From Anniella stebbinsi (lineage: Eukaryota > Chordata > Lepidosauria > Squamata > Anniellidae), in NCBI GenBank assembly GCA_029215795.1, contig JARDYH010000001.1:7992001-8056000 (forward strand): a stretch of 64,000 nt of DNA, in the 5' to 3' direction. Made by a program: the position numbers and the translations under genes. Positions within the stretch are counted from its first letter, which is position 1, and every line of letters starts with the position of its first letter. The notes below the pieces were generated by a model. That model worked only from the letters and a program-made list of their open reading frames with translations. It made no database searches and was not told the DNA's origin. Below, piece by piece: positions 16,493 to 53,758 of this stretch.

Positions 16493-17374
16493 ATGGCCTT
16501 GGCGGACAACGCAGGCTGTGCCAAACCCAGCGAGGACTTGGTTTTCCCGGAGATCGTAGAGCTGAACGTGGGCGGGCAGGTCTACATCACTCGCCACAAC
16601 ACTCTGGTCAGCGTTCCTGGCTCCTTGCTCTGGGAAATGTTTACTCAGAAGAATGGCCAGTCCTTAGCTCGGGACAGCAAGGGCAGGTTCTTTCTGGACA
16701 GGGACGGCTTCTTGTTCCGCTACATCTTGGACTATATGAGGGACCAGCAGCTGGTGCTTCCTGAACACTTTCCGGAGCGGGGCCGTTTGCAGCGAGAAGC
16801 AGAGTACTTCAAGCTGCCTGAACTGGTCAAGACGCTGGCCCCAAAGATTAGCAAGCAGAATTCTTTTGGGGATGAGCCCTGCCAAAGTGACCCTGAGGAG
16901 CTGTCGCCCAGCGTGGACACTGCCCGCAACCTGGCTGCGGCCAGCGCAGCTTTGGCAGGGACCCCTGCAGCGTCCAACATGGCTGCAGCCAGTGCCGGCT
17001 CCGGACAAGATATCCGGAGGTCAGGCTACATCACCATTGGCTACCGGGGCTCGTACACCCTGGGCAGAGACAGCCAAACTGATGCCAAATTCCGCCGGGT
17101 GGCGAGGATCATGGTGTGCGGTAAGACCTCCCTTGCCAAGGAAGTCTTTGGGGAGACCTTGAACGAGAGCAGGGACCCTGACCGCCCACCGGAACGCTAC
17201 ACCTCCAGGTACTACCTCAAATTCACCTTTCTGGAGCAGGCCTTTGACAAACTGGCCGACGCCGGGTTCCACATGGTGGCTTGCAACTCCACCGGGACCT
17301 GCGCCTTTGCCCATGAACAGACGGATGACAAGATCTGGACCTCTTACACCGAATATGTTTTCTACCGTGAGTGA
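16493..17374 (+). CDS. KCTD12B: KCTD12B-like GABA-B receptor auxiliary subunit: main coding exon and complete short isoform (293 aa)
   Basis: The start is the first ATG after the acceptor, and the MALAD opening matches KCTD12. Residues about 18-115 form the T1/BTB domain ([48 protein letters not shown]), which oligomerises and binds the GABA-B2 tail. A linker with [16 protein letters not shown] resembles KCTD8/16 more than KCTD12. Residues about 178-291 form the H1 domain ([63 protein letters not shown]). TFLEQ at 245-249 is the motif reported for desensitizing KCTD12/12b. The protein acts at the inner face of the neuronal membrane on receptor and G-protein signalling. Read through, it ends Y-R-E-stop like KCTD12. 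The bases of R-E-stop are also a splice donor (GTGAGT from 17367), so the spliced form uses only 16493-17366. Assignment to KCTD12B rather than another clade member is from memory of the family. Confidence 0.93.
17364..17374 (+). other. Splice donor overlapping the short-isoform stop codon
   Basis: The bases ACC|GTGAGTGA give a 5' splice site at 17367 with a strong GTGAGT consensus. If it is unused, the same bases read CGT-GAG-TGA, that is Arg-Glu-stop. The exon then ends after one base of a codon (phase 1), as do both downstream exon joins. The short protein's last two residues and stop thus exist only when the donor is not used. Confidence 0.8.
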
Positions 17375-18065
17375 CGCTTAAACCAAAACCAAACCCAAAT
17401 GCACCGAAAGCCAATTCTCCCTTGATCCTCCCCGTGCAGCTGTTCACTTTAGAACGTAGATGCCGCCGTCCGTCCGTCCCTCGAACCTGAAGCCTCCTCT
17501 CCTCCCTCACTTTCCAAACTGATCCCTCTCTGCCACTTCCCTGTGCCGGTTCCTGAGTCACGCCGACCCTTCTTCCCTAGAGCGGCTCGCAGCTTTTCCT
17601 GGAACACGGACTTGGACACTGTGGGGGTGGGGTGGGGGTGGGGTAGCTTATGTCTCTGTATCTGGGGAGAGGTGCTCTGCCAGTATTAACCAGATATGCA
17701 ACTTTATGCGGAGTTCAGATGGGCTGAGATCTCATTCCACGCTGCAGGCTGCTTCTTGCCGTTTGCGCTGCCTGGGTGGGAGGGATTTGCTTCTACTGGC
17801 GCTAAAGGGGTCTGGTGGTCAGATCCTGGTTTGGCAGAAGGGTGGACGAATAGGGCCAAGAGAACCATCCTGCCGCAGACATATTAGCAATAGCCTCTGT
17901 AAGCAGCTTAGTGCTTAGACTGCCAGTACTTTTGAGAGGCGAGTGACTGAGCACAGTATCCCGTATCACTGTGCCCCACCGACACAACACAAAACTGAAT
18001 TCAACACGTTTCCATCGCTCGGGGCGATGAACTAGATGTATGGCAGACAGCTGGGTACCCAGCAT

Positions 18066-18265
18066 GGCGGGGGAAGGAAGAGCCCTCGCTGTGCATTGTA
18101 GAAGGCGGCCAGGTTCGATCCCCACCGCCTCTAGTTCAAAGGATTCAAGGTGGTAGGTGATGGGAGAGATGCCTTCTTTGTCTCAGGCCTGGGAGAGGAG
18201 CTACCACAAAGAGCAGAACATACTGGGCAAGAGGACGGGCCAGTGGTCTGACTCTGTAGAGGGCA
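18066..18265 (+). mobile_element. Diverged SINE-like sequence in the possible short-isoform 3' UTR
   Basis: AGGTTCGATCCCCACCGCCT keeps a B-box-like element and GGCCAGTGGTCTGACTCTGT keeps the SINE 3' part. The middle is much changed. A second weak SINE-like head starts near 18360. Confidence 0.45.
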
Positions 18266-18320
18266 GTTTACGTTTGGAAATGGTAAGACGCCCTGAGAGA
18301 GTTATTTGAAGGAGGCATTC

Positions 18321-18326
18321 AATAAA
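18321..18326 (+). terminator. Candidate poly(A) signal for the unspliced short transcript
   Basis: AATAAA lies about 950 bases after the short-isoform stop. A second AATAAA is at 19051-19056. Either could end a transcript that retains the donor. The choice is a guess from motif and distance, and the area also holds diverged SINE sequence. Confidence 0.3.
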
Positions 18327-18329
18327 GTA

Positions 18330-51430: not shown

Positions 51431-51841
51431 AATCATAGAATCACAGAGTAAGAGAGTTGTAAGGGGCCTATAAAGCCATCAACCCCCTGCTCTATGCAGG
51501 AATTCACTTTAAAGCATACCTGAAAGACAGCTGTCCAGCTGCCTCTAGAATGCCTCTAGTGTGGGAGAACCCACCACCTCCCTAGGGAATTGGTTCCATT
51601 GTCATACTGTTCTAACAGTCAGGAAGTTTTTCCTGATGTCCAGCCAGAATCTGGCTTCCATGTAACTTGAGCCCATTATTTCGTGTCCTGCACGATCGAG
51701 AAGCGATCCTGGCCCTCCTCTGTGTGACAACCTTTCAAGTCTTTGAAGAGTGCTATCATGTCTCCCCTCCATCTCCCCTTCTCCAGGCTAAACATGCCCA
51801 GTTTTTTCCGTCTCTCCTCATAGGGCTTTGTTTCCAGACCT
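51431..51841 (-). mobile_element. CR1 LINE 3' end, reversed
   Basis: It starts with the reversed tail ATCATAGAATCACAGAGTAA and continues through TAACAGTCAGGAAGTTTTTC to CTCCTCATAGGGCTTTGTTT, including the end of the ORF2 remnant in reverse. Confidence 0.9.
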
Positions 51842-52316
51842 AACCTGGAATGCTTACCCAAAATCTGTGTTCACACTTTTGCCTTCATTCTGCAGTTTCT
51901 TTAAAGGCAAAGGCAGTTTGTAAGCATGTGTGGAGGTTGTCTTTGGAATATATTTTGGCTTTCTCCTCTGTGGCTCTGTGCAGCGTGACTGAAAGAGACT
52001 GTTGTGCTTGGCCCTTTGAAAACCTTGGGCTTCTTCCCAAATCTTCAGTCTCACCGAATGGCCCTGAGCAGAGACGAGCCCCAATAAATCTGGAGGCATC
52101 GTTTGAAATGGTGAAATGACCACTTTATCAATTGGAATTGCTCCCAGGGATTAATGGTGCTCTCTCCCTCCCCCACCTCCAACAGAAGGACCTCAGCTGT
52201 AATCTTTAGCATTGATTTATGGAGGAGAGTTCTATCCTACCTCTCCATAAAAAGTGTCCAAGGTGGCTAACAATGATAAAACAACAAAAACAGTACAGTC
52301 CAATAACAGCCTACAA

Positions 52317-52956
52317 TAGGGTGACCCTATGGAAAGGAGGACCAGGCTCCTGCATCTTTAACAGTTGTATTGAAAAGGGGATTTCAGCAGGTGTCATTTG
52401 AATGCATGCAGCACCTGGTGAAATTCCCTCTTCATCGCAACAGTTAAAGCTTCATCACAACAGTCACAGTGACCAGATAAAAAGAGGGCAGGGCTCTTGC
52501 AGCTTTAACTGTTGTGATGAAGAGGGAATTGCACCAGGTGCTGCATGCATAGGCTGACCATCTGAAAAGGAGGACAGGGCTCATATAACTTTAACAGTTG
52601 TAGAGAAAAGGGAATTTCAGCCAGTGTCATTTGTATACAATTAGTTCCTAGTGATATTCCCTCTTCATCACAACAGTTAAAGTTGCAGGGGCCCTTCCTT
52701 CTTTTGTATATGGTCACTCTAGTATAGTGCCTGCACCTTTAACAGTTGTGACGAAGAGGGAATTTCACCAGGAACTAATTGCATACAAATGACACCTGCT
52801 GAAATTCCCTTTCCTCTACAACTGTTAAAGTTATATGAGCCCTGTCCTCCTTTTCAGATGGTCAGCCTATGCATGCATAACAATGACACCTGCTGAAATC
52901 CCCTCCTCAATACAAAGATACAGGAGCCCCGTCCTCCTTTCCATATGGCCACCCTA
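52317..52956. mobile_element. hAT-like foldback MITE family C, outer copy of a nest
   Basis: It opens TAGGGTGACCCTATGGAAAG and closes CATATGGCCACCCTA. It is interrupted at 52550-52869 by a second member of the family. The outer flanking octamers do not match well, so it looks older than its insert. Confidence 0.75.
52550..52869. mobile_element. hAT-like foldback MITE family C, inner copy (320 bp)
   Basis: It opens TAGGCTGACCATCTGAAAAG, closes with the inverse and has a perfect 8-bp duplication TGCATGCA (52542-52549, 52870-52877). The target is a relative whose other copies show the empty site GCATGCATACAAATGAC. Confidence 0.85.
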
Positions 52957-53177
52957 GCTAAAGCGAGAAGGTTTTGCTAGACTTAGTTCCTGCCTGCCTC
53001 TCTCAATTCCCAAACAGCTCTGGCCTTGACAAGGCTAGAAGATGGGGGAAAAGGCCTAGCTGGAAACTTTTGGGAAGGTATGTCATGCCTAATAGAAAAA
53101 ACTTCTCTCTTCTTCCCCTTCTAACAAAATTTGCCTCCAAGAGGCAACTCACCTGGGTTTCTCGTTCCTTCCTCCAG

Positions 53178-53758
53178 TGGATGGCGCCCCAATGAGCACC
53201 ACTGAAATCACCCCACTGACCGCCATGGAGTGTGCACCAGTAGCCACTGTGGAGAGAGCTCCCATGGTCACAGTTGAAGGTGCCCCAAAGCGAGACCTGT
53301 CTCAAAGCAAGGAAGGACCACTCTCGGATAGGAGTTCCAGCTCAGCCACCATTGCTGGTGAGTGTGACTCAGAACTGGCTCTGCCTCCTCCTCCTCCTCC
53401 TCCTCCTCTGGATAAAGGCCCCCCTTCTCAGGCTGGATCCTTGGCATCGTTGCCATGGCCAGATGCTCCCGAGGAGTGTGGCCCGCTGCGGCCCACCACC
53501 TTGGACTTCTCTAAGCCCCTCAAGAAATTGGAAGAGGTGAAGCAGATGGGGCAGAGGAGGAACAGCGACCACGCCAACATCAAGGAGAATGGCCTGGAGA
53601 GTTGCCCTGAGGCTCTTCGTGTCAACGAGGAGCGGAGAGCCCTTCAATCAGAACTGGGCAAATGTATCGAAGACTTCCGGAAAATCAAGATCCCCATCTC
53701 TTTCCCCAAGAAGACGCGCCAGTGGCAAAATGAGCTGCTGAAGAAATACCAGCTCTGA
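53178..53758 (+). CDS. KCTD12B: Terminal KCTD exon encoding the H2 domain (residues 334-526 of the long isoform)
   Basis: The exon is entered at phase 1 (TG completes a codon) and runs open to TGA at 53756-53758. After a low-complexity linker with repeated A-P, T and V residues and eight consecutive prolines (about 403-410), the sequence turns KCTD8/16-like. TTLDFSKPLKK is near 440 and QRRNSD near 459. The H2 core is LGKCIEDFRKIKIP with FPKKTRQWQNELLKKYQL at the C-terminus, matching the KCTD16/KCTD8 tail in pattern and position. In KCTD8/16 H2 blocks the desensitizing effect of H1 when linked to it. KCTD12 and mammalian KCTD12b lack H2, so finding it intact behind a TFLEQ-type H1 is unusual. 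The intact frame and conserved core argue for selection. There is no initiator ATG at the exon start and no separate promoter, so it is an exon and not a gene of its own. Confidence 0.85.
53386..53410 (+). repeat. Coding CCT/CTC trinucleotide run (eight prolines)
   Basis: A CCT repeat inside the last KCTD exon encodes eight prolines in the linker before H2. Such runs vary in length without shifting the frame. Confidence 0.85.

Follow-up and report, generated by a model that had tools for sequence, protein, structure and literature searches.

The 64-kb stretch of the Anniella stebbinsi genome whose first lines stand above (64,000 nucleotides, hereafter the window) carries the ortholog of KCTD12B, published under the name KCTD12L, in four coding exons that are all joined in phase 1 and encode 545 amino acids. 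The exons, their frame and their splice sites can be read directly in the window, and the relatives of the gene and the splice donors of its paralogs are equally open to view. We consider it probable that this KCTD12B encodes an auxiliary subunit of the GABA-B receptor with the order T1-H1-linker-H2, made in a long and a short form depending on splicing.

Four coding exons and the identity of the gene

Coding exon 1 (16469..17366, plus strand, as are all four exons) follows the acceptor cttctacag/gtggg, opens with a short 5′ leader and encodes, from the ATG at 16493, the T1 (BTB) and H1 domains. Its coding part (16493-17366) scores highest for coding type across 264 kb (the window plus 100 kb on each side) and contains both domains that mark membership of the KCTD family, matching the Pfam entries H1_KCTD8_12_16 (PF23110, E = 1.1e-55) and BTB_2 (PF02214, E = 3.2e-16), while its top match among solved structures is the H1 domain of KCTD12. 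An earlier note on this DNA had given the exon a KCTD12/12b character, which these matches bear out. The same note had joined 17366 to either 48810 or 53178. Both of those exons are real, and the joins 17366>53178 and 17366>48810-48935>53178 are both stop-free in translation, but the choice between them is not: relatives have both in series, so we rejected the two exons as mutual alternatives, and a small exon upstream of them had been missed.

That exon, coding exon 2 (38549..38605, 57 nucleotides), encodes R-PSACGQGPQKSSDHPNFP-G between the acceptor ttctctag and the donor CAG/GTAAGG, and preserves phase 1. It was first pointed to by the tails of agamid and duck proteins at 38551-38607, with E values that are weak alone (1.4 and 4.7), and its residues have homologs in the agamid model P0002 and the bird models P0004 and P0009; its donor ranks first among the 3137 GT sites of the window, none scoring higher by the matrix applied. 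Exon 3 (48810..48935, 126 nucleotides), recovered by tblastn with agamid P0002 (7.9e-17) and kiwi P0009 (1.3e-9), contains an SSSEPILDLKT stretch that birds have too, and its donor ranks 17th of the same 3137 sites. Exon 4 (53178..53758) holds the linker and the H2 domain and closes with the stop TGA at 53756-53758; tblastn of the agamid tail against the window finds it at 5.2e-61, and its acceptor ranks third of 4749 AG sites by pyrimidine count. Since one and the same tail matches exons 4 and 3 at these values, neither is a chance open frame. KCTD8 and KCTD16 are not known to have extra small exons ahead of H2; if they indeed lack them, a gene prediction in the style of KCTD8 or KCTD16 would not yield exons 2 and 3, which argues for their genuine splicing in sauropsids. 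The complete 545-residue model is 72% identical to P0002 over 562 aligned columns and 68% identical to P0009 over 549.

A search of the 1.89-Gb genome for H1 placed four loci over the cut-off, among seven candidates scored: the window, KCTD16 on C5, KCTD8 on C4 and KCTD12 at C1:163.28 Mb. In a T1-H1 tree of 59 rows, hand-picked from the relatives, the window gene groups with KCTD12/12b against KCTD8/16 on a branch with support of 100/98, the program warning of long branches that meet at the KCTD16 join; its nearest neighbour is the anguid lizard Elgaria (97% identity). Because of this branch and the separate KCTD8 and KCTD16 loci, identification as either of these genes was rejected, in keeping with what the earlier note had supposed. 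The census of four loci also sets the gene apart from the genome's own KCTD12, a distinction for which the tree by itself is not enough.

The H2 domain in paralogs and other vertebrates

The H2 domain (53555..53755, plus strand; C1:8045555-8045755 as a search match) consists of two predicted helices, and exon 4 (53178-53758) has no significant Pfam match. When its last 67 residues were searched against the whole genome, five matches at E<=10 were returned among seven candidates scored: the domain itself (3.5e-39), one that follows the KCTD16 exon by 232 kb (42% identity, 4.3e-9), one that follows the KCTD8 exon by 86 kb (52% identity, 1.1e-7) and two weak ones elsewhere (0.74 and 3.2). The recovered KCTD16 and KCTD8 exons continue the same phase-1 intron, and three of the four paralogs thus have H2 behind one and the same intron position; the open, phase-matched exon with a KCTD8/16-like H2 that the earlier note had described is confirmed by these matches and by the stop-free joins. 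Near KCTD12 the same query found no H2 match at E<=10, where a decayed remnant could lie below its sensitivity. Apart from H2, an SGTSCNxLSTSS-type motif after H1 is, by eye only, common to KCTD8 (L027, exon 2) and KCTD16 (L026, exon 2), resembled in the sturgeon 12b P0066 and blurred in amniote 12b.

In the final 42 columns of the alignment, the window H2 shares 36 residues with the agamid, 34 each with kiwi and turtle, 29 with Xenopus, 23 or 24 with three ray-finned fishes, and 23 and 22 with KCTD16 and KCTD8; across the full domain it is identical to eight other sauropsids at 47/67 to 53/67 positions. Within exon 4, H2 is better conserved than the linker in 12 of the 14 relatives compared (48/67 vs 67/121 in the agamid, 39/67 vs 28/87 in Xenopus), the linker being better kept in Anolis and Crocodylus, whose models miss part of it. 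An AlphaFold model of agamid P0002, not of the window protein, places the H2 helices at 510-530 and 539-553, in a block of pLDDT 78-90 within an otherwise disordered tail; this model is poor overall (mean pLDDT 52), and only its two H2 helices were used. These helices resemble the two rather isolated C-terminal ones that have been reported for KCTD8 and KCTD16. A tree of H2 alone (10 rows) resolves just KCTD8 with KCTD16 and the three ray-finned fishes, and does not put the window H2 in a supported 12b clade. An alignment of the H2 exon alone with whole proteins scattered the N-terminal part of that exon and was not used.

To see how widely H2 is distributed, we took the best 120 matches of each of three protein searches (of 1159, 1614 and 1662), which pooled to 175 different clusters. 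The resulting counts are of gene models among the matches listed and not of genomes; 12 rows carry no species name and no row is named as a marsupial. H2 is present in 73 of the 120 best matches of the first query, which contained the window's own H2, and in 31/120 and 28/120 for two queries that lack it, from platypus and ground squirrel. In the pool, 76 clusters have H2, 89 terminate a single residue past the conserved YTEYVFxR and 10 do neither. The carriers listed include squamates, turtles, a crocodile, many birds, frogs and, of the ray-finned fishes, sturgeon, gar and teleosts, so that the other vertebrates in which the earlier note had thought to look for H2 do have it in their models. 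In contrast, none of the 11 listed clusters with a mammalian name, from two monotremes and nine placentals, has H2. Since so many non-mammalian vertebrate models carry the domain, mammals look like the exception, and H2 absence is, in the sequences listed, a trait of mammalian members rather than of 12b rows generally; mammalian KCTD12b seems to have followed KCTD12 in this. The earlier note had read the window as retaining an ancestral T1-H1-H2 layout in the 12b branch. Because the gene groups with KCTD12/12b and its H2 exon is intact, the sequences support this retention, with the described lack of H2 in mouse 12b being later or partial; what does not stand is that the layout is special to this genome, given the 76 listed clusters that share it.

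The intron-1 donor and a proposed short form

The donor of intron 1, GTGAGT, overlaps the end of a read-through frame (17367..17374, plus strand, with TGA at 17372-17374), as seen in the sequence and in the alignment with its paralogs. Because the donor can itself be read as codons, without splicing the exon-1 frame extends into the intron by two more codons, CGT GAG TGA, or R-E-stop, which is a KCTD12-type C-terminus. At the same codon the paralogs of this genome align as C/GTGAGTGA in the window, C/GTAAGTAC in KCTD16, A/GTAAGTCC in KCTD8 and A/GGGAGTGA in KCTD12. The last of these has GG for GT, a dead donor one base off a working one, and keeps the read-through stop; at the protein level, solved KCTD12 chains terminate in the same CRE. 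By pattern match only, the first AATAAA after the short stop (18321..18326, plus strand) is a candidate intronic polyadenylation signal, and 12 AATAAA/ATTAAA motifs occur in 17374-30000. Among the 99 listed models without H2, the 89 that stop one residue past the R comprise 67 named non-mammals, 11 mammals and 11 unnamed; 87 of them end in RE, the exceptions being an RD and an RA, both placental, letters that at the protein level would no longer fit a good donor. Long and short models stand side by side in Varanus komodoensis (P0013 and P0120) and in Melopsittacus (P0029 and P0096, the latter labelled low quality).

These observations could be given a functional meaning from what is described for the mammalian proteins. 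Members KCTD8, 12, 12b and 16 are stated to bind GABA-B2 and G-beta-gamma; an eLife paper has KCTD12 and 12b, which are without H2, desensitising GABA-B responses by uncoupling G-beta-gamma, one review calls the H2 of KCTD8/16 auto-inhibitory toward H1, and another has H2 binding effector channels. Finch, shark and salmon papers, which name the mouse, place 12b expression in the medial or dorsal habenula. Since H2 autoinhibits H1 in KCTD8/16 and the members without it desensitise, long 12B would resemble KCTD8/16 and short 12B would resemble KCTD12. From this we infer how expression, isoform choice and physiology may be connected: when intron 1 is spliced, a long KCTD8/16-like subunit would be made in which the H2 helices restrain the G-beta-gamma-binding H1 domain, whereas retention of intron 1, or early polyadenylation within it, would have the donor translated as R-E-stop, giving a short KCTD12-like subunit that would desensitise the receptor response. 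A single gene could in this way set sustained versus transient GABA-B signalling, probably in the medial habenula. KCTD12 would have only the short form left, because its donor is dead and its H2 was not found; being one base from a working donor, with the read-through stop in place and no H2 detected, it would on the simplest history be a T1-H1-H2 gene frozen with its intron retained. More tentatively, and with rather less than even confidence, we suggest that 12B has had two outputs since ancient times. Its intron-1 donor would also serve as the closing codons of a conserved short isoform, and splicing alone would switch a GABA-B subunit between a desensitising and a sustained form; KCTD12 would have arisen when a single donor mutation froze one of the outputs, and mammalian KCTD12b would have lost the long one independently.

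Several points weigh against a two-form KCTD12B. The relatives are gene models, many with plainly inconsistent tails: 10 of the 99 listed models without H2 do not stop after RE, seven entering other residues that resemble other exons and three reading RE or RK past the stop place (white-eye P0138, gar P0154 and the unnamed P0171), and 11 of the 76 listed H2 models have RE or RD at this place, followed by residues that vary between species; these look like model errors. R and E are largely dictated by the donor consensus, so that the in-frame stop alone adds to the case for a short form with a function. The T1-H1 tree, moreover, leaves KCTD12 and 12b unseparated, its two KCTD12 rows sitting on a long branch nested among those of 12b; this placement is suspect, as is the first branching of the placental rows.

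It would be consistent with part of this that non-mammals always splice in a genuine H2 exon and that the RE-stop models arise from single-exon prediction, with no short isoform outside mammals. The letters RE would then simply reflect the donor consensus, automated prediction easily makes single-exon calls, and the gar P0154 together with P0138 and P0171 does read through into longer tails. We nonetheless regard this as the less likely reading, since 89 of the 99 listed models without H2 stop at that very codon, 67 of them in named non-mammals, single species have both long and short models, and the stop requires bases +7 and +8, which splicing would not need. That the H2 exon is a relict, open yet no longer spliced in this lineage, is improbable: the nearest listed relative, Elgaria P0033, is indeed present just as a 289-residue short model, and the KKR of three relatives is KTR in the window H2, but exons 2 and 3 are in frame and conserved with the agamid and birds, the exon-2 donor is unsurpassed in the window, and the H2 identity to eight other sauropsids is that given above. 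Some databases name bird orthologs KCTD8, but with KCTD8 and KCTD16 at their own loci in this genome and the 100/98 branch between, there is practically no chance that the gene is one of these or a recent duplicate of either.

Surroundings of the gene and comparison with known systems

Upstream of exon 1, a CpG island (9501..11000, no strand assigned) with GC of 0.63-0.74 and CpG obs/exp of 0.77-1.07 over three 500-bp bins is a probable promoter and presumably holds a 5′ non-coding exon, which was not located. Between island and exon 1 stands a tRNA-Ala (AGC) gene, or else a repeat derived from a tRNA (13149-13223, minus strand), and Rfam at gathering thresholds gave nothing beyond one tRNA. 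Inside intron 1, the GC-rich positions 36300-37320 hold coding-like segments that recur and stay open on either strand; this is probably a repeat of tandem or transposon origin. An intron-free open frame of 435 amino acids (L019:590-1894, minus strand), odd for a vertebrate locus, lies some 49 kb ahead of the window and has only a sub-threshold match, to an acetate uptake transporter family (E = 0.027).

Within 100 kb on each side lie a GLOD5 exon (8.9e-10), C2H2 zinc fingers that we take to be of KLF type and an exon without Pfam match that is presumably KLF5-like; GLOD5 and KLF8 are, we assume, on human Xp11. A review puts mouse Kctd12b on chromosome X. Some 34 kb before the window, an ACOD1/IRG1-like exon (L018:6326-7183, plus strand) matches the solved cis-aconitate decarboxylase at 1.5e-94, and in the finch IRG1 is likewise a neighbour of KCTD12 (PMC3711925). 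With IRG1 thus beside both genes, KCTD12 and KCTD12B appear to sit in duplicated blocks.

The gene build is not new: databases already list 12b models with H2, labelled for instance KCTD12-like or KCTD12b, and no discussion of it turned up in the literature searched. The term "H2 domain" is absent from the finch (PMC3711925), shark, salmon and lamprey papers and from one GABA-B review. Literature that treats both KCTD12b and the H2 domain describes H2 for KCTD8/16 and, in the passages covered, reports none in 12b, the 2012 KCTD-domain paper lying outside this coverage.

Of the known systems, KCTD12L/KCTD12b (zebra finch ENSTGUG00000005525, lizard ENSACAG00000006433, mouse Kctd12b) is taken as the ortholog of the window gene. 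The 2013 finch paper (PMC3711925) reports KCTD12L with a lizard counterpart and expression in the medial habenula, and sequence and synteny shared with mouse Kctd12b; the latter is described as lacking H2, whereas the window gene has it. KCTD12 resembles the window gene in its N-terminus MALAD, its T1 and H1 and its read-through C-terminus RE-stop, and differs in its dead donor (GG for GT) and in that no H2 exon was found for it in the same genome; a frozen read-through of the splice donor would offer a concrete route to that loss. KCTD8 and KCTD16 share with the window gene the T1-H1-H2 order, the phase-1 intron position and an H2 core (22/42 and 23/42 identical), but the window T1-H1 belongs with KCTD12/12b and two small exons precede its H2 exon. 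The split between desensitising (12, 12b) and sustained (8, 16) subunits has been described, from mouse data, as one between genes; if 12B makes both forms outside mammals, this split would be older and would sit in RNA processing.

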